From: Hygrophila difformis
Taxonomy: Eukaryota > Streptophyta > Magnoliopsida > Lamiales > Acanthaceae
NCBI GenBank assembly: GCA_030278955.1
Contig: JAOANR010000005.1
Location: 5,251,431 to 5,315,430 of the forward strand
DNA: 64,000 bases
Direction of reading: 5' to 3'
Under the pieces are notes generated by a model. That model was not told where the DNA came from. It worked only from the letters and a program-made list of their open reading frames with translations, and did no database searches. Position numbers and translations under genes: made by a program. Positions 39,331 through 61,556 of this stretch are shown piece by piece. The first letter of the stretch is position 1; every line of letters begins with the position of its first letter.

Positions 39331-40740
39331 ATCGAACCAGGACTGTTTGCCACCCTCTTTTAGCCTAATACATTCGGTCTCTTCCATACATACCGGGCAA
39401 GCCGTTTTCCCATATGTGCTCCAACCAGACAACATAGAATATGATGTGAAGTCCCCAATTGTCCACATCAATGTCGCCTTGAGCTGAAAGTTTTGCTTGG
39501 AATATTTGTCGTATGTTGTGACCCCAACTTCCCACAAATCCAATAGCTCTGCTATCAACGGCTGTAAGTACACATCTATCCCTTGCTTTCGGCTTGATCT
39601 CCCAGGGATTATACATGTTAGGAACATGTATTCATCTTTCATACACATGCCGGACGGGAGATTGTAAGGGGTTATAATAATTGGCCAACAAGAGTACTGT
39701 GAACCTGAATGACCAAATGGTTGGAAACCATCCGTGCATAAGCCCAAACGGACATTCCGTCCCTCAGCAGCAAAAACTGGATGAAGTGTGTCAAAGTGCT
39801 TCCATGCCCTCGAGTCGCATGGATGACACATCTCACCGGAAGACCCATGATCATGTCCAACATACCAAGTCATATGCTCCGCAGTCGTCTCTGAAGCGTA
39901 CAACCTTTTTAATCGATTTGTTAGTGGAAAATAGAACATGTACTTGCGTGCAAGCCGTGAAGTGGAATTTGTTTCCCTAAACCGAGGCCCGTCACAGAAC
40001 TTGCATCTATCTAATGATGCATCGTCGCGCCAATACAACATACAACCTTTAGGACAACAATCTATTTTCTGAACAGGTAGCCCCAACCCCTCGAGTAGCT
40101 TCTTCGCCTCGTAAAAGTTCTTTACCATGGCATTATCCTCAGGAAGTGTATCTATTATGAGTTGGAATAAAGTGTCGAAACACCTCTCAGACAGATTATG
40201 TTCAGCCTTAATATTTAACAACCTAGCAATTGTTGACAATAAAGTCATTTTCTTGCATCCAGGCCACAGATCCTTGTCCGCCGCCTCCAACATACGGTAG
40301 AACATGCTCTCTTGTGCGTTAGGTTCCTCGGGGGGCCTCGGTTCATCACCTTCATCACCTTCATCGGGCGGTGTTGTATTCAAAATACCAAATCCCATAC
40401 CATCGAACACCATTTGTATGTAAGCATCTTCAGTGGTGGGCCTTGAAGAGCTGGCCGTTTCAGGAATCTCTGAACTAGGAGGGTGCTGTGACTCTCCGTG
40501 ACACGTCCACCTTTCATAGTTCAGTACAAATCCATTGCATTGTAGATGATACTTGATGTCATCATCAGGTAGATAACACTTATTCCTACATTGTCTACAC
40601 GGACACCTTAGTTTTCCCTGTGCTCTATCCACGTTTGGGTTTTGATGAGACATAAGTAGGAACAAATCAACTCCACTCTTAAATTCTGATGTCAGTACTC
40701 CCAATTCACGACGGGAGCGGTACATCCAACTCTGGTCCAT
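39307..40740 (-). pseudogene. TNP2-type CACTA transposase, internally deleted
   Basis: Start MDQSWMYRSRRELG follows an acceptor (TTAATGTAG). Residues ~1-85 are the transposase-associated domain with CPCRQCRNK. Residues ~280-465 are the TNP2 domain (EHMTWYVGHDHG; GLCTDGFQPFG; WPIIITPYNLP; DKYSKQNFQLKATLMWTI; CPVCMEET). Right after GGKQSWFD, where relatives continue CHRRFL, the frame runs ten codons to a stop. In another frame just downstream, an acidic tail (EGIESESSICIDSTS to SDDDFQI) ends at 39174-39176 and looks like the true C-terminus. An internal deletion at about 39331 best explains this, making the element non-autonomous. Confidence 0.85.
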
Positions 40741-40744
40741 CACC

Positions 40745-41213
40745 TACATTAATATGTTTTCCTCGTTTTGGTTAATATAGACTAAGTGGATGTTACATGG
40801 TTTGTTCCCTTGCATTAATTCAACGCGTGGAATTAATTTAATTAAAATTTACCCTAAGGTGGATTAGACTAAGTGGATGTTATATGAATATGTTGTCATC
40901 GTATATTTGCCTTTAAATTAAATCAATTTTACCTATAAAAACAAGTGGACATGTTGATTTTAATCCAATCAATCAACTAGATTACGTTCATCCTATACTT
41001 AACATATTTCAATTCAACATCTCCACATTCATTCCGAATATACAATCCATATATATAGCATAATTTAAATACTAAGTTCATCCTATATCATAAACAAACA
41101 CTTGCACAATATGAATACTATAAAAACCAATGATGAGAACAACCCAAAAAATAGTTCAACAAGCCATAAGTTTCTCATACGACATCTAAATTAAGCATAT
41201 CATATATGCAAAT
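40745..41213 (-). other. 5' intron of the CACTA transposase gene (part left of the Athila insertion)
   Basis: AT-rich and without open frames. A matching 5' UTR-like exon lies at about 61557-61770, ending CACCCAAG then GTATTC. The Athila element therefore sits within this intron. Confidence 0.6.
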
Positions 41214-44112
41214 TGAAACTTTTGACAATTTCCGTCCCACGAGCTTTTTCTAAAATACACCAGGTTAGATTTATTACAAGAGAAGAGTTATGATTCACGG
41301 GAAAGGGTTTAGGGATACATCAAGATTGTTAGTCTTTTTATTACTCAAGTGTGGTGCTTTAATTTCAAATGGCGCTGTGGTCCTCCCTGTCATGAAATGT
41401 TGACAAATCTCATGGCATAGCCGGGATAGGTTGACCTTCAGCCTGTCACACTGAGGATCCCCGGCAAGTATGCCATGATACTTCTCATCCATTCTTGCCA
41501 TGAGAGTTCCTGCCATGAAACTTTTGGCAAGTTCCCACTACATGAGTATTTTCCGAAAAATCATGGTCCTGGTTTAGATTTTATTTAATGAAACCAATTT
41601 ATGATGGCGGAGTTGTGATTAGGGATATATTTATAAGTAGTCATGTTTTTATTGCTCGTGTTTAAGAAACTGTGGCCCGAAAGCGCACGGTGTCAAAAAT
41701 TGCAGTAATTTATAGTAAGACCGGATCGTTCACTGGAGGATGTGCGATAGAAGCAGGTCCCACGTCGTTTTACTAGATTTTCCATTCGTATTGCTCAATA
41801 AGTTTGAAAGGTGATTAATAACTACTGACATGAATGTAAATTAGATCTAGAAAGCAGTTGAATTAATCTACAAAGTAAATAAATCTATTCTAGAAAGCGG
41901 ATAAGAATTATTCTAAGAATGCAGTAAACATTATCTACGAAAGCAGGGAAAAGGAGCATTGTGCCAACCGTGAAGTTGAGTCACAATGTGGACAGAAAGG
42001 ACAGGAAGAAAAGAATGAAAATTGGACAAGAGTGAGATACAGCAATATTAAACTTCCATTTTTATACGCAGATCTTTGTTTGGGATAATTCTTTCAGATA
42101 GCTAATTCTCATGCTCTCAATAAGGCTTTCCCTTTAGCAGACAGGTACTTGCAATATGAGTTTACATGTTCTTAAGGCCGCAAATTCTAAGATAACACAG
42201 ATTCGTAACTGCCCTGGCCTGGGTATGTTACTCCATCTGTGGTGGAAAAGCAACACCCGACACATCATTTATTGAAATGCCAAGTACCACTATCATTCTC
42301 CCATGTCACACCCAAAGATTTAAATCAAGCCCTAAACTATCCCTTAACTGTCAATCCTAGTAGCAGTTACACAACTCTCAATACAACCGAGTGACCTCTA
42401 ATGAAAGCGATTAAAAGAAAGCGGTAAAGAAAGCATTTAAAATCCTATCACTCGGAGGTTTTGAAAATCTGACCCTGGTAGTAAAAGACAGCTCCCCATC
42501 AGAATGAAGGAGTATGGATCAAGAATTCCCGGCTCTCAGTGGACCACTAGTGTGTTCACTTCCTTCCGGGTGATTATGAGATACAAACTAATGAAACGAC
42601 CTAATAAATTAGTTCGTTCCGGATGCACTCACTCAGGACTCAAAAGTAGGCTTTGGCAGAAGAAGATAGCGGTTGAAAGAAAACTCAACCCTATCTTGGA
42701 AAATAACCAAGGCCTGAATGATGTTCCTCTAAGATTATTTACTACACTGTATTTGAATCCAAGTGGACCCCATCTCGGTGTAGCACCTAATCTTACATTT
42801 CCATCAACCAGCAATTTTGGAAAATAATGGATTTGAAAATCATTCCCTGTCAGGTACTAAACTCTCAGTTAAAACACAGACCCTTTCAGTCTAGACGAGA
42901 CCTAATCGCTGAATCTGCTTCTTAATTCCCAAAATATAACCCTTGATAGAATATGAATTAGTCATAACTGAAGAATTTATCCCTTACTCAGATCCGGATT
43001 TTATAAAGAGGTTTTTGTTGGAAATTTATAAAGCCATATCTGTTTAAGATCTAGACTTCTATCGTCCAGGGGAAGGATCCCAAAATAATTACAGACCACA
43101 ACAGTACATAATATTATCATGCATAAGGGTATATGGAAGTGTAAAATTAATTGACCCAAAATATAGAAGCGGGTCTAGACAGAAAGTGAAACACAGAATG
43201 GAATGGTCAAGGTACCAAAGTAATGGCAGAATGATCAGGTGGACTGTAAACATCTACTGTCCAATTTCCCAATCACTCGGATGGAGCGAATTTAGACAGT
43301 TTAGACCCTGTAATGGTGGTGTCAACACCAGTTGGGCCTCCACTGTCTGTGAATTCGAATAAAAACCTACATGCTTCCCTTCTATAATGATCATCAGTTG
43401 GCATTGACTGATGCCAACTGACTCCCACTACAGTTTGGAATTTGGGTTTGGAAATTAAGATAACAAAAATAAAACTGTATCTGGATGGAAGTCAGTCGAG
43501 CAGCTATTATAACCCCGGATGGGCGAACCGCCAAGGCTTCCACTGACAGCCATTCAGACCATGCAAAATAACAATTAGTGACTAATACCCAGGATACGAG
43601 CTAGTTATCCATGAGGGAATACCCGCCAACATTATTCTGATGTATTCTTCACTAATGGTTCCGCACAACACACAAAGACAAAATAAACAAGAAACAAAAG
43701 AAGATCCATTGTATGAGAGACATTGGTTTCTCATGCAAGGTTGTGGATCGGATCCACATGTAATGGTCTTAAATAATCCTTCCTACCATAATTAATTACA
43801 GTCCGGATTATCTGTTTAAACCATCAGGATTTGTTTATACAAGAATGTTTTAATGGCAATTGAACAAAGGTCCTTTAATCATGATGATTATTGAAGAGTG
43901 ATTATTGCTAATCTCAATTTTTAATCATTAATGAGTCAAGGGTTCAATCAGTTAAGAAGTGCAAATGGAGAATCAAAATTTGGGCAGCATAACACCCTAT
44001 ATTGCAATTCCAGAATGTTACATCCTAACCCGTGGGGCTATGATGTGAGTGTTGCAATATAAAATAGGGAGAGAATGAAATTTGTTTGAGGTCAAATAGA
44101 GAGAGAAACCCT

Positions 44113-44650
44113 TGTCGCGATATCATAAATTCTGTCGCGGACCGAGATCCGCGACATGGACATCCCGACAAGTCTTTTTAGAATTTTTGGCAGCATAACG
44201 CCTCTTTGTCGCTATGCAAGGTTTTGTTGCGGAACGTGGCTCCGCGACAAGAGTGACATCGCGACAAAGTGTTTTCAGAAAATTCTAAGGCATTTGAACC
44301 TTTGTCGCTATGCATGGAAATTTTGTCGCGGAACGTGGTTCCGCGACAAGGTGTTCCGCGACAAAGTGTTCAAAGATTAAGAAACATGGCATAATTTTTC
44401 TGTCTCGGAATGGGATTTTGTCGCGGAACGTGGCTCCGCGACAAGATGATTCCGCGACAAGAAGCCATGAAGACAAAATGCAAGAGTTTGGCTCCTTTGT
44501 CGCTATGCATGGATAGTTTTGTCGTGGAACGTGGCTCCGCGACAAGGTATTCCGCGACAAAGGGTTTTAAATTTGGAGACAAGTGTCTTGAAACACCTTG
44601 GTCGCGGAACAGCCACTCTGTCGCGGAGCGTGGTTCCGCGCCAGAAGGCG
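44113..44650. repeat. TTGTCGCGGA/TCCGCGACAA palindrome array in the 3' LTR (transcribed part)
   Basis: At least five hairpins with 10-bp arms TTGTCGCGGA and TCCGCGACAA; four have the loop ACGTGGC or ACGTGGT (44224-44250, 44323-44349, 44418-44444, 44519-44545). Single half-sites TTCCGCGACAA and TTTGTCGCTATGCA occur between them. The 5' LTR copy is at 59411-59948. Confidence 0.9.
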
Positions 44651-45369
44651 GTTGGCGCCCAAGGTGGTTCAGGACAAAAGTCAGAAAAAGCAGAAATGAA
44701 CAGTGGCATGCAAACAGCGTGATCTCACCCTATTTCAGATCAAAAAGCTATTCTAAGCTAAAAATAAGCAAGAAACATTCAAAATAAGGAAGAGCATGCT
44801 TAAACAAAAATAACAAGACTGGGCAGGATATTAAAAATAAAGCAAGAGTCCTAATCTAGGGTTTGATCACACATCCACACAACATTATCCATAATATGCC
44901 AACAGTAAACATAAGAGTAACAAAATGGGGGTCAAATGACCCCAAAATGAAAAAGAATGCATAAATCCATGGGGTGTGAGACCCATTTCATGATTTGGGA
45001 CACAAATGATGAATGTTTTCCCATATTATTGAAGAGGTGTTGTTAATACCCATGATTTGGGTATTACAAACCCTAAAACAAGAGTTTAGAAAACAAAACA
45101 TAGTATAAAAATGGCTATCTAAGCACTGTGAACAGTAAAACACTAATCTAAGCTAAACTAAGTGCAAAAATTAAATAATACATGAAAATAAACCTAAACT
45201 ACTCTACCTAAGAGAGAACTCCTACTGCTTGCCTTCAAGAACCTCTAACAAAATCTCAACCTTCCAACCAACCCTTAGCTCATGGGGGACACCTCATATT
45301 TATAGAAGTGTAACCCTAAGCCCATGGGCCTTGATTCTAGCCCATTGTGTCTTAAGACATCACACACAT

Positions 45370-45620
45370 CACAGCTTTGTCTCGGAACATCAAGTTGGTC
45401 GCGGAACACACTGCATGTGGCAAGGCTTCTCGACTGGGTCTTGTGTCTCTATTTGTGCATCTTGGTCGCGGAATGGACCTTTGTCGCGGAGCATGCCATC
45501 GCGACAAGGGTTATCGCGCCAGGGGCTTGGCTGGTCTCCTCTTCATTTGGGGCCAGTTGGTCGCGGAACATGCCTTTGTCGCGGAACACTGCATCGCGCC
45601 AAGGGTTTCCGCGACAAAGG
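45370..45620. repeat. CGCG palindrome array upstream of the 3' LTR TATA box
   Basis: Half-sites GGTCGCGGAA, TTTGTCGCGGA, CATCGCGACAA, ATCGCGCCA and TTTCCGCGACAAAGG at roughly 20-40-bp spacing, next to GGCCCA motifs (45632-45654). The copy in the 5' LTR is at 60668-60918. Confidence 0.85.
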
Positions 45621-45923
45621 TCTTCCTGGGCCTGCTGGATTGGGCCAGATGGGCCGAAAATATTCTTTTTGTGGGCTTTTCTATCTTTTTCCCATCTTTT
45701 TGTTTCCTTTTCTTTTTCTCATGTTTTTGGATTTTTCTAACATAAATATGTAATAAAATTACATATTTATGTCTTTCTCACACCAGCTTATTATTTTTAC
45801 AATTATGCATAAATCAGTCCAATTCGACTGCTTTCTTACTTAATGTAAGACCGGAATGCGATCAAATGCCCGTTTAAGACACGGAAATGGATTGAAAATA
45901 ATGGTCATTTTTGGCCATTATCA

Positions 45924-47604
45924 ACATCCTCACATTTAATACTGATCGTCCCCGGGCAGTCAGAGTCAATGTTCCTAGGAACACGGACTCTACATATTCA
46001 ATTCATTTTCGTGGCTTCATAAATCACATCCTTTTTAGATTGGGATAAGACAATCAAAAACTACAAGTGTTAAATTCCCTTGATTGCAGTGTTTAATGAA
46101 ATGATACTTGCTCACTATATCAGGCCTACAAATCAAACATTATCATCAATCCTTCATGAATATCATGTTTGAAAGATGCAAAGATTAAAAATTAGAATTA
46201 AGGTATGACATGAACATGTGTAATGAGAAAAGGCCTCACTTATAAAAGAATCGGAAAATTCACTCACTCTCAATTGGGGTTTAATCATGAACGCTCAAAA
46301 TCAAACTTTAATTAAATTATCCCATAAGCTTGCAATCAGACCAACTCGCCACCGGCTCATTTCTTCAAATCGAGATCACGAGGTCTTATTCGAGGGTTGT
46401 AACGGGGCGTACGGTTGTAACATTAGGTAGGAAAGGGAAATTATTGGGCTAAGAAGTGGCAAGAATTTATTCCATCATAACTTGGCATTTTTATTTAAAC
46501 TTTATGATCATTATTGTTTCTTTCTTTTTGGTTTTCTTCTGCAGGACATTAGACTATTGTCTAATTGCTTGTCATTTGCAATTTATTGTTATTGACTGAA
46601 ATTCAACATTTTTCTCTCTCTTTTTTTTTTTTTTTTTTTGATGAATCGGTTTATAATATACCGATTAACATGGATTGATGATCATAAGTTTAATGCCTTC
46701 GATAGAATTCATTCTTACACACTTGGGTTTGATTTTCTTGGTCTTTTTATAAGGCTAGGAATAATATAGAGGGCTTCAAAGAAAAATTAGGCTTAAGGCT
46801 CAAATTGGTTAATCCTAAAGGGAAAATATTTTTGGGTTTGGATTTCAAACGAAGGCCAAAAAAAATTGGGTTTTCTAGGTGCCTCGATCATATGCTCGAT
46901 TTCGGGAATATGGCGTGGTCTTGAATCGGTCCCAATTGCAAGTTCTAGTTTCCTTTAATCAAAATGATTCACACATCAAAGAAAATGAATGAGTAAAATT
47001 GACTCATGGCTCAAATCTCACAAGGTTGGGTTGATTCATGTCATACAATATTCTCAAATTTAATCGAAGCTTAATTCTAACAATTTATTCAATCAAAATC
47101 TCTAACATGCAGATTTATTACCCAATAAGCTGATCGCATCATTAAATTTTTATAGCTCAAAACCTCAGGAATTCATGTCATGCATGTCTTCAATTATATT
47201 ATCCCAATTTGAAAGTCTGAAGATTTAATCATAAGCCTAAATTCAACCTGTGAATTTAGAGCAAGTTTATGCATATTTTTGCTGGTTATTTAATTGAAAG
47301 CAGTAAAGAGGCACTGCTGACATACTGAGTATGTCAACAGCATATTTTTGGTCTGACAGTCACTTATTCATCTCGGACTGTGCAGACATCTTTTAAAAGG
47401 AAAGCAGTAAAGAGTTGTTTAGTGGTCTCAAAAGCTGAGTTCCAATTTAGGGAAAGCAATTAAATACATCCGAGGCAAGGGATTCTCGTGCAGTTAATAC
47501 GAACCTGCACACACAAAAGGAGGAAATCCCTTGCAAATACTACTACTAGGATGGAATTAAAACAAAGCAGGGTAAATGCGGGGCTAGGATTCTTCCTTCC
47601 TTCT
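45924..47604 (-). other. Athila 3' non-coding region, between F-box gene and 3' LTR
   Basis: About 1.7 kb without open frames. It has a T-run at 46621-46639. At 45924 the sequence abutting the LTR reads ACATCCTCACATTTA on the plus strand; its complement is a purine-rich TAAATGTGAGGATGT that is the likely polypurine tract. Confidence 0.7.
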
Positions 47605-49421
47605 TCAGAACATGTAGCTAGCCCAGTGGAGATAGCTGGATAGCTCGCACCGCAGACACCAATCATTGGGATCTGTTATGGCCTCGTGATCCCTGGGGCA
47701 GTAAACTCTGCCTTCCTGATCAGCCCATAGGAATGGGGTGTCTGGTTGGTCAACCATCCACTCGAGGACATTGACGGATGTGTCTTGGAAGACTGACCAT
47801 TTCGTCACTATCCTGTCAATCATCCTGATTCCCTGCTCGACCTGCCCTGCGTCCTCCTTGCTCATGAGCATCAACCCGTAGGCAAAGACTGTCGCTTTAT
47901 GATTGTCCTCAATCCCCAGGCGTAGCAGTTCATAGGCTTGCTCTTCATTCCCCTCTCCAAATGCCAACATTGCTGGAATGATTTGGAGATTGTGGTTTCC
48001 AGCCTGGTCGCATGTCCGAAGGAATCTCCGCTTCTCCCAACGATAGTACTCCCGCCCTCTCTTTATAGTGGATGAGTTGACCTCGCATCGTTTGTAGACG
48101 ATGGAGAGGTTCCCGGCATCCCTGAATTTCTTGCAGGTTTGCTGTGCCTTGAAGGCTTCACTGATGTCATTCTCTCCTACACGAGAGAGGATTTCACCCA
48201 GGAGCTCGAGGGGTAAGTCCAGCAGATGAGTTTCTTCGGGTGCATGGTCTGGAATGGGAGGATTACCCCTGAAAAGATAAGAAGTGATGAATCCAATTTT
48301 TATATAATTTTCGGAAATTATTCAAGTTTAGAAACCAACATCCTCACATTTAGAGCTTTGCTCTAGATGTGAGATTATTAAATTTCTGACTTGAATTTTT
48401 AATTTAAAGCACATGTAAATAATATTTGGTTTTAAATGGGTTTAAGAGCCCAAAATAAAATAAAATTGGCCATTGGGCCTAAAATCTTTTTAATGGGCCA
48501 TAGGGCCCAAAAGTTTTCAGTTTATTAAACAAGTCCGAGACACTTGTTGGAAGTGGAATGAGATGGATAGGTGGAAATGGAATGCTCGAATATTGGAATG
48601 TGCAATGGAGACGTGGCGGAACGGATTTGCTGTTTCTGGATAGCTTGGACTGTTTGGACAGTTTTTGCATCCAGAAAATTTGCAAACACTGTTTTTAATT
48701 TTAAAAATGGTTGACTTGTTTTATTTAATAAAAGTGGGATGTGAGTGGTCCCATTTTGGATTTTTGAAAAGGATAGCAGTTGGGTGACAAAAGTACTGCT
48801 ATCTTACTCACACAAGTGTTCCATTGGGAACAAAAGACTCAAGTCAAACATTAAACAAAAATAACTCTTTTTGTCTTTTTCTAAAAGGTTGCTTTTATTA
48901 AAAGTGGAAGCTTCCTATTGGGTGTTTGTACTATGTTTCCATAAACAAACAAACACTTATTCCCATGAGATTTCTAACATGAGAACAAATGTGCCCAAAA
49001 AGATCTTCCATCTTTATTACACCACCCACACTGTGCACATCACATCAGGATCAATCAAACCAATAACATCAAGATATTCAAAACAATACCCAAATGTTCA
49101 TCAGTTTGTTCTTTCCAGTTTTAAACTTCAAAAATCTGTGAACCTTTACCAGTTTTAACACCCTTTGGCAGTTTCAAAATGGGGTTTCAACGTTTGAAAA
49201 CAGTGCTCATAATCGAGAGCACTTCCAAAAATTCTAAAGTTAAAATCACATAAAAACCACACCACACCAAGAACACAACAAAATGAAAAACGAGACAAAA
49301 CAAAAAGAACGGGTCCGAAGGGGGGCCATGACCATGGTGAAAATAGGGTTTACCCTCTCCTCCTTGGCTCGGGTCTAGGCACGGGTCCAAGGATTGGGAG
49401 GGGTCCATGAAATCGGTCCAT
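47605..49421 (-). CDS. Captured F-box protein gene, 2 exons, 243 aa
   Basis: Exon 1 49354-49421 (starts MDRFHGPLPILGPVP) ends AGAGG|GTAAAC; exon 2 47605-48268 begins after CTTATCTTTTCAG. The junction keeps frame and the total is 732 nt with one stop. Residues ~39-80 are an F-box-like domain (LLDLPLELLGEILSRV; TCKKF). A basic stretch (KRGREYYRWEKRRF) and a Sel1-like helical segment at ~120-165 (EEQAYELLRLGIEDNHKATV) follow, then a Cys-containing end. The layout matches plant F-box proteins of the At2g35280-like family, which act as SCF ubiquitin-ligase substrate adaptors. It lies between pol and the 3' LTR, on the same strand. The family assignment is by eye; exon structure and frame are seen directly. 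Confidence 0.8.
48269..49353 (-). other. Intron of the F-box gene
   Basis: 1,085 bp, AT-rich, GT-AG. Near its 3' end (48344-48387) is a PPT-like CAACATCCTCACATTTAGAG (plus strand) followed by a hairpin CTCACATTTAGAGC / GCTCTAGATGTGAG. Confidence 0.65.
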
Positions 49422-49569
49422 AGTTTCCCTTAGAAATGGCGTGCAAGAGTGCGAAGAACACGTGGTGTTCGTTCGGATGAGAGAAAAATGGGGGAAAAGA
49501 AGATGAAGAAACTGAAAGAAGTTGAAATGACAGGAGGGAGGTGAAGAGAAACTGGAGGGGGTGGGGGGG

Positions 49570-49577
49570 TATAAATA
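49570..49577 (-). promoter_or_regulatory. TATA box of the F-box gene
   Basis: TATTTATA on the minus strand, about 150 bp upstream of the ATG. It is followed by a C/T-rich leader typical of plant 5' UTRs (about 49440-49565). The CGCG palindrome array lies immediately upstream. Confidence 0.6.
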
Positions 49578-49582
49578 CTTGA

Positions 49583-49898
49583 ACTTTTGTCGCGGAATCC
49601 GAGACTTTGTCGCGGAACAAGGTTCCGCGACAAGGCATAGCGACATTAGAGATGTCGCGGAGTTGAGGGTTGGTCGCGGAGTCATGCTCCGCGACAAGGC
49701 CATCGCGACAAAGTTCAGTATGGAGACAGTCAACGCAGGTCATGTCGCGGAACAGGTCCTGGTCGCGGAGTCATGCTCCGCGACAAGGTGCATCGCGACA
49801 AGATGTGGGGAAGGGTTAAGAAAGAGAAAAGGGGTTTGTCGCGGAACAGGTCCTGGTCGCGATGCATGACATCGCGACAAAGGTCCTTCCGCGACAAA
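49583..49898. repeat. CGCG palindrome array upstream of the F-box gene TATA box
   Basis: Contains a perfect hairpin with 12-bp arms TTGTCGCGGAAC (49607-49618 with 49622-49633) and two copies of TCGCGGAG-TCATG-CTCCGCGA (near 49675 and 49765), plus several half-sites. It is the same family of motifs as in the LTRs but lies outside them, directly upstream (minus strand) of the TATA box at 49570. Confidence 0.88.
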
Positions 49899-50388
49899 GG
49901 ATTTTGAATTTTCAAATTTTCTTGGACTGGGCCCGAGTGTGGTATTGGGCCTGCGTCCATTTTATTTGATTTGGGCTAAATAAATTTAGTCCAAGTAAAT
50001 TCAAAATGCTGGGCTGAAAATTAAATAGTCCACTTGCATAAAATTAGGTTGGGTCAGTTCCATTTATCTGTGAATTTTATTTCGGGTCTTGAATTTCTTC
50101 AATTCCCGAAAACATTTTCTCAGATTTATAGAACTAATCCAACCAAGAACCTGGTTTTTCCATGTTACTCTTATCTGCTCCTCTTTTTGGTGGTTCCGAA
50201 CTTCTGCAAGACAGACAAATAAGACGCATTAGATTTTCTCCAAATATCAACATCCTCACATTTAGAGTCTTAGTACTCTAAATGTTTAATTGATCTTTGG
50301 GTACTTTCTTGCCATGAAGTAAATACTGTAAATATATACTATATATATATATATAAAATAAAATTTTTGTGTTTTTAAATGCTGTTTC
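49899..50388 (-). other. Spacer between pol and the F-box promoter
   Basis: Contains GGCCCA motifs near 49930, an acceptor-like TTTGTCTGTCTTGCAG on the minus strand at about 50202-50217, and another CAACATCCTCACATTTAGAG (50249-50268) with a perfect hairpin ACATTTAGAGT / ACTCTAAATGT. An AT run is at 50339-50355. Confidence 0.6.
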
Positions 50389-53300
50389 TTATTGAGTGTA
50401 AGCCGGGTCTGCCACTGCTTGGCTTTCTTTCTCCGGATCGAACTGTCCGAGGTACTCTTTCAATCGTTGTCCATTCACCACTATATCGCCCCTGCCAGTT
50501 CGAATCCTGACAGCTCCATTTTTGAACACCTCTAGTACTTCATGTGGTCCTTCCCATCTAGATTTGAGCTTTCCGGGGAACAGCTTCAACCTAGTATTGA
50601 ACAATAACACATGTTGACCAACATAAAAATACTTAGGTTTGATCCGGCGATCGTGCAACTTCTGGGTCCGCTCCTTGTAAATTCGAGAGCTTTCATAAGC
50701 TTGCGCTCGTATTTCCTCAATTTCATTGAGGTCCAACTTACGTTTGCTCTGAGCAACTTTCGGATCGAAGTTAAGCGTTTTCACGGCCCAGTAAGCTTTA
50801 TGCTCTAGCTCTACAGGCAAATGACAGGCTTTTCCAAAGACCAGCCTGTATGGAGACATCCCGATGGGAGTCTTATATGCTGTCCGGTATGCCCATAGAG
50901 CATCATTGAGCTTACGTGCCCAATCCTTACGGGTTATCCCGACAGTGGCTTCGAGTATGTGTTTGATTTCGCGATTGGATACTTCGACTTGACCACTAGT
51001 CTGGGGATGATAAGGTGTGCCTATCTTATGGAGGATCCCATTTTTACTCATTAAAGTTTCAAAACCTTTATTAATAAAGTGTGTTCCTCCATCAGATATC
51101 ACCACCCTAGGTACGCCAAATCGACTGAAAATGTTGTTCTTGAGGAACTTGATGACTTGGCTACCATCATTGGTCGGTAATGCGACAGCCTCGACCCATT
51201 TGGATACGTAATCGACAGCTACCAAGATATAGTAGTTTCCACCAGATGGTGGAAACGGTCCCATGAAGTCGATGCCCCATACATCAAAGATCTCAAGTGT
51301 GAGAATCCCCTTTTGAGGCATCTCATCCCTCTTGGAGATGTTTCCTAATCTTTGGCATCTGTCACAGCCCTTAACAAATGTCCTGCAATCCTCATAGATG
51401 TGAGGCCAATAAAATCCACATTCGAGGACCTTGTGGGCCGTTCGAGCGGGACCATGGTGACCTCCATATTCTGATTCATGGCATTTTCTGACAATTTGAT
51501 AAGCTTCATGCTCGGTCACACATCGCCTGATTATTAAATCAGGGCAGTGTTTGAAGAGATAAGGTTCTTCCCAGAAGTAACTTAATACATCTCGTTTGAA
51601 CTTATTCCTCTGATGATAGTTCGAAAACTGGGGGGTTATTCCGCATGCCAAGAAGTTAGCGATGTCGGAAAACCATGGACAAGCTTGATTATGCAGATGC
51701 AACGCGAACAACTGTTCGTCCGGGAAATCCTCATTGACGGCTTTTTCCTTTTTATCATTATCTAATCGAGATAAGTGGTCAGCAGCACCATTATCTCGAC
51801 CTCGCCTATCTTTTATTATGATGTCGAATTCTTGCAACAGAAGTACCCACCTGATTAATCGAGGTTTTGCATCTTGTTTGCTAAACAAGTATCTCAATGC
51901 TGTATGATCAGTGTATACTATGGTCTTCGTACCTATTAGGTACTGTCTGAACTTGTCAAACGCGAAGACTACAGCATACATCTCTTTCTCCGTTGTGGTG
52001 TAGTTAACTTGGGCCTCATTCAGGGCATGACTTGCGTAATGAATTACGCAGTGTCTCCCATCCTTATGTTGTCCAAGAACTGCGCCTACGGCGAGACCAC
52101 TAGCATCGCACATTACCTCGAAAGGTATTGACCAATCGGGTGGTTGCACTATCGGTGCAGAAACCAACATCTTCTTGAGCGTGTCAAAGGCTTGGACACA
52201 CGCTTCATTTATTAAGAAAGGATTTTCTTTACAAAGCAGATTAGTGAGCGGCTTGGCAATTTTAGAGAAATCCTTAATGAATCGCCGGTAAAAACCGGCA
52301 TGCCCTAAGAAGCTCCTAACTGATTTGATCGAGTTAGGAAGAGGGAGATTGGAAATGATGGAAACTTTGGCTGGATCAACTTCAATGCCTGCACGAGAAA
52401 TGCGATGACCTAACACTATGCCCTCAGTAACCATAAAATGGCACTTTTCCCAATTTAAAACCAAGTTAGTGTCCTCACACCTCTTTAAAATCTTAGCAAG
52501 ATTGGTCAAACAATCTTCGAACGTATCTCCATATACAGAGAAGTCATCCATGAAGACCTCAATGCATTTTTCGATAAATTCAGAGAAAATAGACATCATG
52601 CATCTTTGAAAAGTAGCAGGTGCATTGCATAAACCAAAAGGCATCCGTCGATAGGCAAAGGTGCCGTACGGGCAAGTAAAAGTGGTTTTATCATGGTCCT
52701 CACTGGAAATAACAATCTGATTATAACCAGAATAACCATCCAAAAAGCAATAAAACTCTCTCCCTGCCAACCTCTCAAGCATCTGATCAATGAATGGCAA
52801 TGGAAAATGGTCCTTGCGTGTGGCCTCGTTCAGCTTCCGGTAATCGATACAAACTCTCCATCCGGTCACTGGCCTGGTTGCAACCTCTTCTCCTTGCTCA
52901 TTCTTGGTTATGCACATCCCTCCTCGTTTGGGTACGACCTGCACTGGGCTAACCCATTTGCTATCAGAGATAGGATAGATTATACCAGCATCTAAGAGCT
53001 TGATAACTTCTTTCCTTACCACTTCCTGCATAAGGGGGTTCAATCGCCTCTGAGGTTGACGGGAGGGTTTAAACTCTTCTTCCATTAGAATCCTGTGCAT
53101 GCATATAGAAGGGCTTATTCCTTTTATATCAGAAATGGTCCAACCTATTGCATGTACATGTTTCTTAAGAACGACCACCAGAGCATTTTCTTGCTCTTGA
53201 GAGAGCTTAGCCGAAACAATCACGGGTAACTTTTTATGTTCTGCGAGAAACGCGTACTTGAGATGATCGGGTAGTGTTTTAAGTTCAAGCTCTGGTGGAC

Positions 53301-53742
53301 ATTCAACGGAAGGGAGTAGTTTGCGAGAATTGGGTAGTGGGAGAACAGATTTACCTTCGGGATCCTGCATCAGTACAGGATCCTCTTCTTCCTCTTGGTT
53401 GGCGTCCTCATGGAAGTCCATGCCATCAAATTCCTCCAAATCCCCTGTTTCGGGATCGGCGAAGTGAACGGCTTTGCATTCTTTGTGCTCCACGCCAGCA
53501 GGCTTCAGTACCTGCTTTGATGGTTCATCCAGCATCATTTCACACTCAAGTTCAGAGTCAAGCTCTTCCCTAACTATTACATTTTCAAATGAAAAACACG
53601 AACTGTCATTCGGAAATTTCTGCAATTTCTCCATATCAAAGATGATCTCCTCGCCATCGACCCTTAAGGTGACTTTTCCGGATTTAGCGTCAATCAGTGC
53701 ACCACCAGTGGCTAGAATTGGGCGTCCAAGGATAAGTGGCAT
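50389..53742 (-). CDS. Athila Pol: reverse transcriptase, RNase H, integrase
   Basis: An uninterrupted 1,117-codon frame, in phase with Gag. It opens with the conserved [19 protein letters not shown] lies at ~245-440, with catalytic FMDD encoded at 52543-52554. RNase H at ~530-650 shows EVMCDASG and [10 protein letters not shown]. Integrase at ~740-980 has [15 protein letters not shown] and the DDE core ([31 protein letters not shown]). All visible catalytic residues are present, so the pol part looks functional. It could only be made by readthrough of, or independent initiation beyond, the upstream stops. Confidence 0.95.
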
Positions 53743-53826: not shown

Positions 53827-54783
53827 TCATACGGGCTGAGTGATCGATCTGTCTGCGAGTTGCAGTCTCATCTTGACCGGTTGAATTTCTCCAAGCTTAA
53901 GGCGAACAGCCATAGCTAGTGGCATCACATTGATGCTTGATCCTAGATCACAAAGCCCCATACTCACTTTGGCCTTTCCGAATTGTACTGGAAGTGTGCA
54001 ACATCCGGGGTCCTCTTTCTTTTCAGGCATTCTCCTCTGAACGATGGCGCTGCATGTGCTGTTGAGAATAATTACCTCTTCCTGCTCAACCTGCCTTTTT
54101 CCTGAAATCAATTCTTTCAAGAACTTAGCATAGATGGGCATTTCGGAAATCATTTCTGTGAGAGGAATGGTTATCTCTACAGACTTTAATCGTTGCAGAA
54201 ATTTCTTGAATTTAAGATCATGTTCTTTATTTTTAAGCCGCGCAGGATAGGGAATCCTGGGCATGTACTTGTTATTAGCAATTTTTGGTGGTGAAGGGAA
54301 GGAAGTTGTACCTTCACCTGTACCCTTATCTGGTTCAGCCGTTTCAGGTGCAGCTTCAGTCTGCAATTCGGCTGTCTCTCTTTCTGCTTCGTTCCCATTA
54401 TCAGCTTCCTTACCAGCATTGTCAACAATATCATCTTTTTCAAATTGCGCTCCAGTATCCACTCCCTTTGGTCCAGCTAGTACTCTCCCAGATTTCAAGA
54501 TTATTGCCTTGCATTGCGGGTTCTTTTCCGCAGTGCTAGGCAATGTTTCTTTGTCCCTTTTCTGCATCTCATTAGCCATCTGTGTAACTTGGGTCTCCAC
54601 ATTTCTGATGGAGGCCTGCAGTTGATTGTTGATCTCTTTCTGACTAGTGATGAAATCAGTCATCAGATTCTCAAGCCTTGAAGGAGGCTTTTGATTCTAA
54701 TTCTGATTTTGCTGCTGATTCTGATTCCACTGGCCTTGGTTTGGGACAAACTGAGGCTGGAAATTCTGATTGGGCTGAAAGTT
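53827..54783 (-). pseudogene. Athila Gag tail and protease segment, between nonsense codons
   Basis: Same frame as Gag. A second TAG lies at 54697-54699; from 54663 the frame is open for 278 codons. It contains KAIILKSGR, the conserved PYPARLKNK block and the protease active-site segment CDLGSSINVMPLA (DLGAS-type). It ends at TGA 53827-53829, where relatives have a PYGI-type sequence. The protease would process the polyprotein. Confidence 0.88.
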
Positions 54784-56349
54784 CTAGAAATTCTGCGGCG
54801 GCCTCTGCTGGATCTGAGGTTGGAAACCTGGATTCTGAAAATGTTGGCCCCTGTTCTGATTGAATCCCTGATTCTGTTGAGGGTTGAACTGCTGTTGCTG
54901 TGGCTTATTCAAGAGATGTGAATTCAAGGCGTTGTTGTTTGAATAAGACAAATTCGGGTGTCTATTTGGAAAAGCTCCTGCATAGTTACAGCTCTCTGCT
55001 GTGACTTGCTCGCATGTGTCAGTTGCATGAGCACCTTGACACAGTCCACAGATCACATCAGTTTGCTGTCCCTGCGCGGAACTTCCAACTCCTTGATTCA
55101 CAGATAACGCTGCCACTTGCTCTTGAAGCTTTTCAATGTCTGACTTCTCTACTGTACCTACAACACACAAACCACGAGGGGGAGTGGGATTACCATCATC
55201 AGTTAGAACAGAACGGTTGACACTCATGGCTTCAATCTTTGCCCAGGCTTGGTCCATAGGTATGTAGAGCAAATGTTGACCACCGGCAGCATCAAGCATG
55301 GATTTCCATGCTGGGGTCAGACCACTGTAGAACTTTCTCAGTCTCTCCCAGTCATGGAAACCATGTTGAGGACACTTTCTGAGTAGGTTGAAGAATCTTT
55401 CCTTTGCATCATACAAGGACTCGTCTGGTTTCATCTTGAATTCCGCAATTTTGGAGCGGCATTCATCCACCTTGGACTCCGGGAAGTATTTTGCTAGGAA
55501 GTTTCTGATCACATCTTCCCATGTAGACTTCTGATTTACGGGCAGTGACTTGTACCATGTTCGTGCTCCGCTTGTCAGAGAGAAGGGGAATAGCCTTAGT
55601 CGAATGGTGTTTGCGGGTACATCACGATTTTTGATCGTGTCACACAATTCAAGGAAGGTTTGCAGGTGATCATGGGGATCTTCATGACTTGCTCCGGCAA
55701 ACTGGTTGCTCTGGACTAGATTGATTAGGGCCGGTTTCAGTTCGAAATTCCTGGCCAAGAATGGAGCTTGTCCAGGAATGTTCAGATATGGCTCTAAAAT
55801 CGGCTGCATGTAATCAGCAGCAGCTGCTGCTTGATGATTGTTCTCAGGCCCGCCTTGGTATTGCTGTGGGTAGTAGTTCTGAGGCATGAAATAGTTCCTC
55901 GGATCATTGAAATCATTCGGATTCGGGGGATTCTGATGGGGGTTGTGGTATTGCTGATTCTGTTGGTTTGGGAAATTTTGCTGATTTGGTTGGTTTTGGT
56001 TGTTTGGTGGGTTTTGGTTCGGGTTGGGAGGGGGTGCCTCGAAGTGTTGCTGGTCCATGTTTGGTGGATTCCCACCTCCTTGTATGATCTGGGGAGGGGG
56101 ATCATCCAAATCATCATGATCAGCATCTTCGGGGTCTTCCTCAATGTTGTGAAGTGGGGGATTGGGTTGAATGATTGGTGGGATGTCAGGGTTTGCCATT
56201 TCGGAGATATCGCTGCTGGTGCTTGGCGAAAGTAATGCCTGTCGTTCCCGTTCCCTTCTTCGTTTAGTCTCCGCCCTAAGACGTCGAGCTGTCTTTTCTA
56301 TCTCGGAATTAAACGGGATCTCGGCTGGCGTCTGCTTCCTCCTTTGCAT
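54784..56349 (-). pseudogene. Athila Gag, closed by an in-frame TAG
   Basis: 521 codons starting MQRRKQTPAEIPFNS. After an acidic/Pro-rich N-terminus and an N/Q/P-rich stretch comes the Athila Gag core at ~205-365 (LKPALINLVQSNQFAG; LRLFPFSLTSGARTWY; FLAKYFPESK; SLYDAKERFFNLLRKCP). A zinc-knuckle-like CGLCQGAHATDTC follows near 425. The frame stops at TAG 54784-54786 inside a repeated QNF(Q) stretch, where the sense codon was probably CAG. Gag would assemble the virus-like particle. Confidence 0.92.
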
Positions 56350-56494
56350 AGAACAACGGCTTCAATAATGACAGTACCTGTACAATCCCCTGGTTAGAAG
56401 TGGTTCTGAAGGTGAATATTTATAATTATATGTATAGGCTACTTCTAGGAGCAATGAGGAATGTAATTCTCTAAATAAAACGGCGCTGCATCCT

Positions 56495-56511
56495 CCCCGG
56501 CAACGGCGCCA
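56495..56511 (-). other. Primer-binding site, tRNA-Asp type
   Basis: The plus strand reads CCCCGGCAACGGCGCCA, identical to the 3' end of plant tRNA-Asp(GTC) with CCA, and directly abuts the 5' LTR. Athila elements are known to use this primer. Confidence 0.92.
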
Positions 56512-56592
56512 TGAAACTTTTGACAATTTCCGTCCCACGAGCTTTTTCTAAAATACACCAGGTTAGATTTATTACAAGAGAAGAGTTATGAT

Positions 56593-56814
56593 TCACGGGA
56601 AAGGGTTTAGGGATACATCAAGATTGTTAGTCTTTTTATTACTCAAGTGTGGTGCTTTAATTTCAAATGGCGCTGTGGTCCTCCCTGTCATGAAATGTTG
56701 ACAAATCTCATGGCATAGCCGGGATAGGTTGACCTTCAGCCTGTCACACTGAGGATCCCCGGCAAGTATGCCATGATACTTCTCATCCATTCTTGCCATG
56801 AGAGTTCCTGCCAT
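56593..56814 (-). CDS. 73-codon ORF in the Athila LTR, possible uORF
   Basis: Starts MAGTLMARMDEKYHG and is identical in both LTRs (41295-41516 in the 3' LTR). It resembles no family I know. In the 5' LTR it would sit in the gag leader, about 240 bp upstream of the Gag ATG. It may be a leader ORF or chance. Confidence 0.25.
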   Translation of the reverse strand: MAGTLMARMDEKYHGILAGDPQCDRLKVNLSRLCHEICQHFMTGRTTAPFEIKAPHLSNKKTNNLDVSLNPFP

Positions 56815-59800
56815 GAAACTTTTGGCAAGTTCCCACTACATGAGTATTTTCCGAAAAATCATGGTCCTGGTTTAGATTTTATTTAATGAAACCAATTTAT
56901 GATGGCGGAGTTGTGATTAGGGATATATTTATAAGTAGTCATGTTTTTATTGCTCGTGTTTAAGAAACTGTGGCCCGAAAGCGCACGGTGTCAAAAATTG
57001 CAGTAATTTATAGTAAGACCGGATCGTTCACTGGAGGATGTGCGATAGAAGCAGGTCCCACGTCGTTTTACTAGATTTTCCATTCGTATTGCTCAATAAG
57101 TTTGAAAGGTGATTAATAACTACTGACATGAATGTAAATTAGATCTAGAAAGCAGTTGAATTAATCTACAAAGTAAATAAATCTATTCTAGAAAGCGGAT
57201 AAGAATTATTCTAAGAATGCAGTAAACATTATCTACGAAAGCAGGGAAAAGGAGCATTGTGCCAACCGTGAAGTTGAGTCACAATGTGGACAGAAAGGAC
57301 AGGAAGAAAAGAATGAAAATTGGACAAGAGTGAGATACAGCAATATTAAACTTCCATTTTTATACGCAGATCTTTGTTTGGGATAATTCTTTCAGATAGC
57401 TAATTCTCATGCTCTCAATAAGGCTTTCCCTTTAGCAGACAGGTACTTGCAATATGAGTTTACATGTTCTTAAGGCCGCAAATTCTAAGATAACACAGAT
57501 TCGTAACTGCCCTGGCCTGGGTATGTTACTCCATCTGTGGTGGAAAAGCAACACCCGACACATCATTTATTGAAATGCCAAGTACCACTATCATTCTCCC
57601 ATGTCACACCCAAAGATTTAAATCAAGCCCTAAACTATCCCTTAACTGTCAATCCTAGTAGCAGTTACACAACTCTCAATACAACCGAGTGACCTCTAAT
57701 GAAAGCGATTAAAAGAAAGCGGTAAAGAAAGCATTTAAAATCCTATCACTCGGAGGTTTTGAAAATCTGACCCTGGTAGTAAAAGACAGCTCCCCATCAG
57801 AATGAAGGAGTATGGATCAAGAATTCCCGGCTCTCAGTGGACCACTAGTGTGTTCACTTCCTTCCGGGTGATTATGAGATACAAACTAATGAAACGACCT
57901 AATAAATTAGTTCGTTCCGGATGCACTCACTCAGGACTCAAAAGTAGGCTTTGGCAGAAGAAGATAGCGGTTGAAAGAAAACTCAACCCTATCTTGGAAA
58001 ATAACCAAGGCCTGAATGATGTTCCTCTAAGATTATTTACTACACTGTATTTGAATCCAAGTGGACCCCATCTCGGTGTAGCACCTAATCTTACATTTCC
58101 ATCAACCAGCAATTTTGGAAAATAATGGATTTGAAAATCATTCCCTGTCAGGTACTAAACTCTCAGTTAAAACACAGACCCTTTCAGTCTAGACGAGACC
58201 TAATCGCTGAATCTGCTTCTTAATTCCCAAAATATAACCCTTGATAGAATATGAATTAGTCATAACTGAAGAATTTATCCCTTACTCAGATCCGGATTTT
58301 ATAAAGAGGTTTTTGTTGGAAATTTATAAAGCCATATCTGTTTAAGATCTAGACTTCTATCGTCCAGGGGAAGGATCCCAAAATAATTACAGACCACAAC
58401 AGTACATAATATTATCATGCATAAGGGTATATGGAAGTGTAAAATTAATTGACCCAAAATATAGAAGCGGGTCTAGACAGAAAGTGAAACACAGAATGGA
58501 ATGGTCAAGGTACCAAAGTAATGGCAGAATGATCAGGTGGACTGTAAACATCTACTGTCCAATTTCCCAATCACTCGGATGGAGCGAATTTAGACAGTTT
58601 AGACCCTGTAATGGTGGTGTCAACACCAGTTGGGCCTCCACTGTCTGTGAATTCGAATAAAAACCTACATGCTTCCCTTCTATAATGATCATCAGTTGGC
58701 ATTGACTGATGCCAACTGACTCCCACTACAGTTTGGAATTTGGGTTTGGAAATTAAGATAACAAAAATAAAACTGTATCTGGATGGAAGTCAGTCGAGCA
58801 GCTATTATAACCCCGGATGGGCGAACCGCCAAGGCTTCCACTGACAGCCATTCAGACCATGCAAAATAACAATTAGTGACTAATACCCAGGATACGAGCT
58901 AGTTATCCATGAGGGAATACCCGCCAACATTATTCTGATGTATTCTTCACTAATGGTTCCGCACAACACACAAAGACAAAATAAACAAGAAACAAAAGAA
59001 GATCCATTGTATGAGAGACATTGGTTTCTCATGCAAGGTTGTGGATCGGATCCACATGTAATGGTCTTAAATAATCCTTCCTACCATAATTAATTACAGT
59101 CCGGATTATCTGTTTAAACCATCAGGATTTGTTTATACAAGAATGTTTTAATGGCAATTGAACAAAGGTCCTTTAATCATGATGATTATTGAAGAGTGAT
59201 TATTGCTAGTCTCAATTTTTAATCATTAATGAGTCAAGGGTTCAATCAGTTAAGAAGTGCAAATGGAGAATCAAAATTTGGGCAGCATAACACCCTATAT
59301 TGCAATTCCAGAATGTTACATCCTAACCCGTGGGGCTATGATGTGAGTGTTGCAATATAAAATAGGGAGAGAATGAAATTTGTTTGAGGTCAAATAGAGA
59401 GAGAAACCCTTGTCGCGATATCATAAATTCTGTCGCGGACCGAGATCCGCGACATGGACATCCCGACAAGTCTTTTTAGAATTTTTGGCAGCATAACGCC
59501 TCTTTGTCGCTATGCAAGGTTTTGTCGCGGAACGTGGCTCCGCGACAAGAGTGACATCGCGACAAAGTGTTTTCAGAAAATTCTAAGGCATTTGAACCTT
59601 TGTCGCTATGCATGGAAATTTTGTCGCGGAACGTGGTTCCGCGACAAGGTGTTCCGCGACAAAGTGTTCAAAGATTAAGAAACATGGCATAATTTTTCTG
59701 TCTCGGAATGGGATTTTGTCGCGGAACGTGGCTCCGCGACAAGATGATTCCGCGACAAGAAGCCATGAAGACAAAATGCAAGAGTTTGGCTCCTTTGTCG

Positions 59801-60594
59801 CTATGCATGGATAGTTTTGTCGTGGAACGTGGCTCCGCGACAAGGTATTCCGCGACAAAGGGTTTTAAATTTGGAGACAAGTGTCTTGAAACACCTTGGT
59901 CGCGGAACAGCCACTCTGTCGCGGAGCGTGGTTCCGCGCCAGAAGGCGGTTGGCGCCCAAGGTGGTTCAGGACAAAAGTCAGAAAAAGCAGAAATGAACA
60001 GTGGCATGCAAACAGCGTGATCTCACCCTATTTCAGATCAAAAAGCTATTCTAAGCTAAAAATAAGCAAGAAACATTCAAAATAAGGAAGAGCATGCTTA
60101 AACAAAAATAACAAGACTGGGCAGGATATTAAAAATAAAGCAAGAGTCCTAATCTAGGGTTTGATCACACATCCACACAACATTATCCATAATATGCCAA
60201 CAGTAAACATAAGAGTAACAAAATGGGGGTCAAATGACCCCAAAATGAAAAAGAAAGCATAAATCCATGGGGTGTGAGACCCATTTCATGATTTGGGACA
60301 CAAATGATGAATGTTTTCCCATATTATTGAAGAGGTGTTGTTAATACCCATGATTTGGGTATTACAAACCCTAAAACAAGAGTTTAGAAAACAAAACATA
60401 GTATAAAAATGGCTATCTAAGCACTGTGAACAGTAAAACACTAATCTAAGCTAAACTAAGTGCAAAAATTAAATAATACATGAAAATAAACCTAAACTAC
60501 TCTACCTAAGAGAGAACTCCTACTGCTTGCCTTCAAGAACCTCTAACAAAATCTCAACCTTCCAACCAACCCTTAGCTCATGGGGGACACCTCA

Positions 60595-60602
60595 TATTTA
60601 TA
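60595..60602 (-). promoter_or_regulatory. TATA box of the Athila 5' LTR
   Basis: TATAAATA on the minus strand, about 75 bp downstream of the first CGCG palindrome array (60676-60918) and about 620 bp from the LTR edge. It is duplicated in the 3' LTR at 45297-45304. Confidence 0.6.
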
Positions 60603-61556
60603 GAAGTGTAACCCTAAGCCCATGGGCCTTGATTCTAGCCCATTGTGTCTTAAGACATCACACACATCACAGCTTTGTCTCGGAACATCAAGTTGGTCGC
60701 GGAACACACTGCATGTGGCAAGGCTTCTCGACTGGGTCTTGTGTCTCTATTTGTGCATCTTGGTCGCGGAATGGACCTTTGTCGCGGAGCATGCCATCGC
60801 GACAAGGGTTATCGCGCCAGGGGCTTGGCTGGTCTCCTCTTCATTTGGGGCCAGTTGGTCGCGGAACATGCCTTTGTCGCGGAACACTGCATCGCGCCAA
60901 GGGTTTCCGCGACAAAGGTCTTCCTGGGCCTGCTGGATTGGGCCAGATGGGCCGAAAATATTCTTTTTGTGGGCTTTTCTATCTTTTTCCCATCTTTTTG
61001 TTTCCTTTTCTTTTTCTCATGTTTTTGGATTTTTCTAACATAAATATGTAATAAAATTACATATTTATGTCTTTCTCACACCAGCTTATTATTTTTACAA
61101 TTATGCATAAATCAGTCCAATTCGACTGCTTTCTTACTTAATGTAAGACCGGAATGCGATCAAATGCCCGTTTAAGACACGGAAATGGATTGAAAATAAT
61201 GGTCATTTTTGGCCATTATCACAAATTCATCTACTCGACGAGAGCTTTCCAATTATGTGCTTATAGTTTCTAGAATCTAAACATTTTGTGCGTAAATTAC
61301 GAAAACAGATTGCTGCCCGGAATCTAGCCACATGCAATCTCGATTTTTTTCCCCTATTTTGCGAATTTGCTAACAAACACATCAAACATAATGTCCAACA
61401 CTCGATTTTCTATCTATAATCTCAGATTCCAACATCAATTAAAAAAATAAAGTGAAATTAACCTCAAGCTAATAAAACGAAACACAAACAAAAATTTGCC
61501 CAAAATTTTGAACAATCGAATATCTAAAATGGGAAGGAGTAGTCAATCGAATACCT

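Follow-up and report, generated by a model that had tools for sequence, protein, structure and literature searches.

Plant long terminal repeat (LTR) retrotransposons of the Ogre/Tat/Athila (OTA) group can carry, family-wide, an extra sense open reading frame (ORF) between pol and the 3' LTR, as described in parts of two papers (PMC7264820; PMC6317226). For these additional ORFs (aORF, eORF-3'F), the plant mobile domain, Transposase_28 and Athila ORF-1 are named as the most prominent domains; the parts concerned make no mention of an F-box, and the term is absent from the main text of PMC6317226. Here, we analysed a 64,000-nucleotide stretch of the Hygrophila difformis genome (the window), in which a young Athila-type element carries an F-box/TPR gene. 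The gene shares position, strand and family-wide presence with the OTA additional ORFs, but it differs from those described by its intron, by its two allele classes and by the presence of several paralogues in a sister family.

Other described systems resemble this locus in single respects. Orchid Gypsy elements with a 2-ODD (AlkB m6A demethylase) ORF, which the relevant sections of one study propose to reflect host surveillance (PMC9289625), likewise represent a Gypsy lineage that has retained a host-type functional domain, although they are Tat-like and encode a different activity. Among the 15 unusual domains of that study, the same sections name PMD, G-patch, AIR1, DUF1409, YgdH, L26/KOW, B3, ArgoL2 and 2-ODD; the term 'F-box' is absent from its main text, the supplementary chart lying outside this scope. 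One F-box 'LTR-gene' is mentioned for Thlaspi, with no element family described in the portion of the source covered (PMC8764390). The polerovirus P0 protein, a silencing suppressor, has an F-box-like motif and binds plant SKP1; according to an excerpt of the work (PMC6593998), suppression does not directly depend on this interaction, which serves the stability of P0. Both P0 and the window protein are F-box-type proteins of a parasite; P0 is viral, and the two are likened by motif. In Arabidopsis, the gag, pol and env parts of Athila elements have been exchanged between distant families, as stated in part of PMC2410132; here, a strongly different F-box exon is found on pol ends that are 99% identical. 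A fixed, selected, multi-allele F-box accessory gene in retrotransposons was not found in the open-access literature searched. Extra ORFs with host-type domains as such are already known from plant Gypsy elements.

The F-box/TPR gene and its presence across the family

The near-identical LTRs (3 mismatches and no gaps in 4710 bp), exact target site duplication, primer binding site-like sequence and polypurine tract (PPT) confirm an LTR retrotransposon insertion (Table 1). The first-pass annotation had placed an intact two-exon F-box gene inside this element, and that description holds: a coding sequence of 732 nt (243 codons and a stop) lies on the minus strand between the end of pol and the 3' LTR. 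A profile search, proposed earlier as a check on exon 2, found the Pfam F-box (PF00646; 25.0 bits, cut-off 20.5) and TPR_27 (PF23310; 33.6 bits, cut-off 27), with F-box-like (PF12937; 20.4 bits) below its cut-off of 24.3. The F-box named in the annotation is thus recovered, whereas its Sel1-like region is TPR_27 instead. Both domains match at E ≤ 0.1 in all nine family members scanned. In copy L074 the F-box scores 26.0 bits, above the cut-off, as does TPR_27 in the class II alleles described below (29.5–31.8 bits). No Athila or Transposase_32 domain matched the F-box ORF in Pfam at E ≤ 1. Exon 2 has no in-frame ATG upstream of MLAF (47970), so that the F-box needs a spliced start; the start codon and splice sites, read earlier from the window alone, are kept in every one of the first 21 sequences compared. 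Also as first noted, the gag/pro part has three stops while the cargo is intact: gag, pro and pol share one frame that is interrupted ahead of pol at 54786, 54699 and 53829. Open runs in the cargo extend to 238 codons at most, and a length of 219 was reached by none of 2000 Markov shuffles of cargo composition. Shuffles at exon-2 composition reached it in 45 of 2000 cases, and domain matches and conservation are therefore stronger evidence than ORF length. It is these two that rule out a chance ORF, for which the exon-2-composition shuffles alone would be insufficient.

Copies were sampled in three ways from the 915-Mb genome that contains the window: 20 ranked by the F-box, eight picked by the 3' flank and six picked by pol, the last two sets being added because the first 20 were ranked by the F-box itself. 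The gene is found at the same site in all 34 further copies examined (20/20, 8/8 and 6/6), taken from the best rows of longer lists, and the proposed search for other copies with the same insert thus succeeded. The F-box ORF search had 6241 first-look candidates, of which the best 150 rows were scored, one of them being the window itself. The other 149 show 81–98% identity, six rows fall short of the full query, and an internal stop is absent in 147 of the 150. From this list, 20 copies were fetched with their surroundings at steps down the ranking. The pol end, U3-like part, exon 1, intron, exon 2 and 3' flank follow in order in all of them, and the last part and LTR start are reached in 19. 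The exception, L023, has the F-box gene and is missing the usual part ahead of the 3' LTR as well as the 3' PPT.

The 3' flank search (best 40 rows of 3936 candidates) returned non-window rows that are 95–99% identical. None of the eight copies chosen from the 39 non-window rows is in the F-box search list, so that this set leans to diverged copies, and the F-box exon is open in all eight. The pol-end search (best 40 rows of 2823 candidates) returned 39 non-window rows at 99%. Six copies were taken from the 17 rows that by eye had no F-box or flank row nearby, which leaves out 11 of the 40; the other 23, the window included, have such a row at about the expected distance, again by eye. The exon is present in all six pol-chosen copies and open in five. 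Both additional sets lean towards divergence because they were drawn from rows without known window-like F-box copies. In the copies sampled from these best-row lists, the ORF has the same place and strand, as expected of an accessory ORF fixed in a family; some members beyond the best rows may lack it.

Outside this genome, relatives of the F-box gene were absent from viral contigs, and none was confirmed among 11 pattern matches in other genome contigs. The F-box protein had no match at E ≤ 1e-3 (93 candidates) in a set of 5.8 billion proteins, which does include plant proteins, and an alignment of nine F-box copies had none at E ≤ 10 (1920 candidates). Plant host F-box/TPR_27 proteins, presumably those that we and the first-pass annotation call At2g35280-like, have the same Pfam domains, and none matched the window gene in this set at the thresholds used. 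A host-like TPR_27 stretch does occur in the genome studied here: L051 (C10:34088000-34090800), a row of the TPR_27 search described below, scores 52.3 bits and is unlike the repeats. It may be a host member of the gene family from which the F-box gene of the element derives.

Selection, allele classes and a sister family

The ratio of nonsynonymous to synonymous divergence (dN/dS) among element copies, a comparison also proposed earlier, is about 0.2–0.3 for the F-box exon. Stops and indels are absent from exon 2 throughout the first 21 sequences, mean dN is 0.035 and mean dS 0.169 (ratio of means 0.21), and the three codon positions have 36/38/105 variable columns; the corresponding ratio of polymorphism (pN/pS) is 0.23 (codon bootstrap 0.17–0.31). 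As controls in these sequences, noncoding stretches read as codons gave 0.64–0.71 and frame +1 gave 1.76, and the pol end (108 codons) gave 0.042, with a stop in 1 of 21. Mean divergence is 0.028 in exon 1 versus 0.098 in the adjoining half of the intron. In the eight flank-chosen copies, pN/pS is 0.31 (codon bootstrap 0.22–0.44), and the window compared with L076 gives an omega of 0.24 at a dS of 0.98, both frames being open. The flank-chosen copies, which are free of the ranking bias discussed below, together with the position-chosen B1 and B4 genes of the sister family, point to purifying selection on the F-box protein.

The insertions themselves are young. In all 10 dated copies, the LTR pairs are 99.56–100% identical in the main alignment, with a second piece of L010 at 98.2%. 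With a rate of 1.3e-8 substitutions per site per year, the main LTR pieces have ages of 0–134 thousand years; for the additional L010 piece the estimate is about 514 thousand. The synonymous divergence of the F-box exon from the window is 0.05–0.39 in the first 20 copies and 0.51–1.0 in the four flank-chosen copies computed (L074, L075, L076 and L081), being 0.98–1.0 for L076 and L081. Judged by this divergence, the F-box exon is far older than the young insertions that carry it. In L075, L076, L079 and L081 the pol end is 99% and the 3' flank 96–97% identical to the window (97% in L076 and 96% in L081), yet the F-box exon is only 73–83% identical in DNA. Less alike than the pol end are the intron in its first half and the stretch ahead of the LTR, which differ by about 10–11% between copies. 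Protein comparison separates a window-like class I from a class II, comprising L076–L081 plus L083–L087, the exons of the latter five being 95–99% identical in DNA to L076. Two mosaics combine the classes: L028 is class II-like in its first part and class I after it, and L074 is mostly the opposite, class I-like first and class II-like behind. Furthermore, in L024, L025, L027 and L028, divergence from the window rises sharply at the start of exon 2, with a 20–30% difference in the 120-bp step from 48240 versus 1.7–4.2% in the preceding step. We infer that the F-box exon has been exchanged repeatedly, probably by template switching between co-packaged RNAs.

The sister family was read at one place as three neighbouring stretches (L049, L053 and L052; C9:42019500-42036000), which hold five tandem diverged F-box/TPR ORFs and a Transposase_32 ORF. 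Its integrase end is 66–70% identical to that of the window. Past it follow the five ORFs, B1–B5, on the same strand, two hairpin-PPT motifs, a long ORF and a PPT-like site; the second part of the long ORF matches Transposase_32 (50.1 bits, cut-off 45), a domain tied to Athila ORF1 in part of a sunflower study (PMC11728184). L050 is 96.6% identical to L049 over 3406 bp. Pfam matches above the cut-offs were obtained for B1 (F-box-like 33.4, F-box 20.8) and B5 (TPR_27 49.1, F-box 21.3); for B4, the F-box in L050 (26.3) and TPR_27 in L049 (27.9) are above and TPR_27 in L050 (26.6) is below. B3 and B4 in L049 appear truncated or contain a stop. Protein identity is 23–52% among B1–B5 and 27–37% to the window gene. 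B1 and B4 were also sampled by position at ten further places, the earlier loci being counted in; stretches with no match (4 of 11 for B1, 1 of 12 for B4) were dropped before the counts, and about 75 extra columns in all copies of the B4 alignment are an artefact at the reference's end. The resulting pN/pS is 0.12 for B1 (7 copies) and 0.22 for B4 (11 copies). In a TPR_27 search (best 150 rows of 5039 candidates, all above the cut-off), most rows listed share the 260-aa frame of the sister family, and a stop is found in 3 of the 150.

Upstream segment, splicing and possible function

The stretch ahead of the gene, earlier taken for a host promoter acquired with it, starts at an exact PPT copy and aligns with the element's own U3. 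The 17-mer TAAATGTGAGGATGTTG of the PPT/LTR junction occurs three times (50264, 48352 and 45938), which the first-pass annotation had not noticed. The two internal copies lie on RNA hairpins, as do the internal PPT motifs of the sister family (z −3.2 and −5.0), whereas the 3' PPT has none (z +0.8). In L049, the internal junction motifs are at 3041 and 3143, and the second internal copy of the window is about 80 bases upstream of the intron acceptor. These hairpin copies may act in splicing or as additional sites of plus-strand priming. In soybean Diaspora, of the same lineage, the PPT is 128 bp past the pol stop and abuts the 3' LTR, according to part of the source (PMC1142308); the first PPT copy of the window has a similar spacing, about 125 bp past pol. 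Aligned with the element's U3, the U3-like segment scores 145 against a null maximum of 56 in 100 shuffles, the alignment running via CGCGAC repeats that lie about equally far from the TG start in both, and TATTTATA is read at 49577-49570. This segment is a putative internal promoter of the F-box gene and may be a remnant of an older 3' LTR, now serving as a promoter, as read-through capture would leave. With our own scoring scheme, the five ORFs that have no ATG ahead of the F-box (the window gene and B2–B5) all agree in the phase of their best acceptor within the open frame, which fits splicing to a common first exon.

Within this young, multi-copy Athila-type family, the accessory F-box/TPR gene is a regular component, old and under selection. 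As a whole, we consider it probable that this is an old, selected, recombining accessory gene which is internally transcribed and spliced and encodes an adaptor of the SKP1–cullin–F-box (SCF) ubiquitin ligase. Transcription would start in the U3-like segment between pol and the gene, and splicing would join the short ATG exon to the F-box exon. The F-box part of the protein would bind SKP1/ASK and the TPR part its target, so that the element borrows the host SCF; the likeliest targets would be host silencing factors that restrict the element or the element's own proteins. The F-box exon would be swapped by template switching, and diverged alleles would persist in circulation through a moving host target. 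The mostly intact frames, strong divergence and exchange, together with viral F-box-like precedents, suggest a role in counter-defence. Only tentatively do we extend this to an arms race, in which a near-invariant pol end is combined with interchangeable adaptors from a diverged stock (the sister family has five in tandem) that turn the host SCF on changing restriction or silencing proteins, the intron and invariant PPT hairpins forming conserved cassette edges.

Several observations weigh against the explanation of a selected, spliced SCF adaptor. In a neutral simulation with 6241 copies diverged to the same degree, keeping the best 150 could reproduce much of the signal of the F-box ranking, including the low nonsynonymous share, and the F-box-ranked 21-sequence sample alone is therefore no proof; its dN/dS was set aside as sole evidence after this simulation, and the flank, pol and position samples were added. 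Exon 1, with 11 variable columns and a ratio of 1.9, lacks the length needed to test for selection. The F-box exon is broken in one of the six pol-chosen copies; among the position-sampled genes, stops occur in 3 of 11 B4 copies and 1 of 7 B1 copies, and one-base gaps in 3 other B4 copies and 1 B1 copy. B2 (TPR_27 26.5) and B3 (F-box 18.7) are under every Pfam cut-off, and so is the F-box of the class II alleles L076 and L081 (15.6 bits, cut-off 20.5), a score that may either weaken the idea of SKP1 binding in class II or reflect divergence. AlphaFold2 models are poor (pLDDT 38 and 45), and a search of solved structures gave no convincing match. The U3 similarity depends on the CGCGAC repeats and is not significant once they are masked, and B3 has a higher-scoring acceptor in another phase ahead of its open frame.

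The first-pass annotation had inferred that the element took up a host F-box gene along with promoter and intron, considered here as a recent event in a single element. Such captures do occur in plant LTR elements, as mentioned in parts of two papers (PMC13317346; PMC7264820), and the window element is young, but the gene occupies the same place in all 34 further copies from three picks, dS between copies reaches 1.0, and the sister family holds five diverged genes; such a capture has next to no probability, and for the window copy it is ruled out by the presence of the gene in all copies examined. We find it equally far-fetched that the F-box score is an error and the gene an env-like one (Athila ORF1) of the common kind. 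Such a gene would have the same position between pol and the 3' LTR, and env-like messages are reported to be spliced in part of PMC7264820; Pfam, however, gives F-box and TPR_27 and neither Athila nor Transposase_32, and the sister family has F-box ORFs beside a separate Transposase_32 ORF, which rules this candidate out. The refuting condition named earlier, an ordinary env-like ORF common to all Athila elements, has a mixed outcome: this family shares the gene, which is an F-box gene and no env-like ORF. We also find it improbable that the gene is a neutral passenger, intact merely through the youth of its copies. With all 10 dated copies young, little decay after insertion is expected, ranking bias could mimic part of the selection signal and some sister-family genes are broken; yet the divergence predates insertion and is constrained, as the ratios of the flank-chosen copies, of position-chosen B1 and B4, and of the window versus L076 indicate.

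Self-regulation is the main rival to counter-defence, and we regard it as rather unlikely. The adaptor would mark Gag or integrase of its own or competing copies for turnover, host defence not being targeted. Diverged F-box exons on near-identical pol ends are what a lineage-distinguishing marker would show, and one sister-family element holds several paralogues; however, the pol end, the part that the comparison covers, is 99% identical across very different F-box alleles and so has no matching change. A question apart concerns the two allele classes, which may reflect repeated fresh exchange with older unsampled Athila families instead of long coexistence within the family. This has some plausibility, although we do not expect it: the sharp left divergence edge at the start of exon 2 in four copies and the mosaics fit import by recombination, whereas a non-exhaustive search found no donor family for class I or II, and the sister genes have just 27–37% protein identity to the window gene.

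The accessory ORFs of plant retrotransposons are mostly of unknown function, and the F-box class offers a clear biochemical test. Here, selection maintains such a gene, whose divergence between copies far exceeds that of the adjoining pol end and 3' flank. Whether ubiquitin adaptors serve retrotransposons in a fight against host silencing thereby becomes a directly testable question. Moreover, some annotated plant 'F-box genes' may be retrotransposon-borne.

Features of the element and the rest of the window

Coordinates of the element's parts are collected in Table 1.

Table 1. Parts of the Athila-type element, in order along its coding strand (window positions)
Feature	Position	Strand	Evidence or remark
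Target site duplication ATTTG (element strand), 5' side	61222..61226	.	read from flanks
5' LTR	56512..61221	-	4710 bp; 99.94% identity to 3' LTR
Primer binding site-like sequence adjoining 5' LTR	56494..56511	-	read from sequence
gag ORF, closed by in-frame stop at 54786	54784..56349	-	Retrotrans_gag PF03732, 65.8 bits
gag-pro continuation, in-frame stops on both sides	53827..54663	-	ORF list
pol ORF (RT, RNase H, integrase)	50389..53742	-	Pfam RVT_1, RT_RNaseH, rve
Internal PPT copy 1, hairpin foot, ~125 bp past pol	50250..50264	-	exact motif; invariant in 21/21; hairpin z −4.5
U3-like segment (TGATA start, CGCGAC repeats, TATA box at end)	49577..50249	-	aligned with LTR U3
Pyrimidine-rich leader	49422..49569	-	read from sequence
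Exon 1 (ATG at 49421; 22 codons + 2 bases)	49354..49421	-	ATG and GT donor kept in 21/21
Intron, 1085 bp, GT-AG (donor at 49353)	48269..49353	-	donor and acceptor kept in 21/21
Internal PPT copy 2 with hairpin, within intron	48338..48352	-	invariant in 21/21; hairpin z −6.0
Exon 2, F-box and TPR_27 domains, stop at 47605	47605..48268	-	Pfam; open in 21/21, 8/8 and 5/6
3' flank, F-box gene to 3' PPT	45939..47604	-	first part in 20/20, last part in 19/20 fetched copies
3' PPT	45924..45938	-	abuts 3' LTR; kept in 20/21 sequences
3' LTR	41214..45923	-	LTR pair comparison
Target site duplication ATTTG (element strand), 3' side	41209..41213	.	read from flanks

The order of Pfam domains in the element is gypsy-type (gag, RVT_1, RNase H, rve), and no protease family scored in the Pfam scan. 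A second, archaeal-type RNase H is a marker of Tat; the RNase H matches in pol belong to RT-linked families only, in a scan without a dedicated archaeal-type model. Compared with a public protein set, pol shows 54–69% identity to 120 listed proteins, the named nearest ones being plant proteins. The name Athila is one that we, like the first-pass annotation, assume for this element, and its primer binding site-like sequence we take to be of the tRNA-Asp type. Rfam gave no match at the gathering threshold within 41000-61500. Elsewhere in the window, an LTR-like pair (11497-14297 and 19923-22731, 96.7% identical) surrounds gag-pol-like ORFs at 15231-19711, and another (27955-28554 and 33026-33626, 95.8% identical) surrounds copia-like ORFs at 28587-32290. 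Finally, a 478-aa ORF on the minus strand at 39307-40743 presumably resembles an En/Spm-type transposase.

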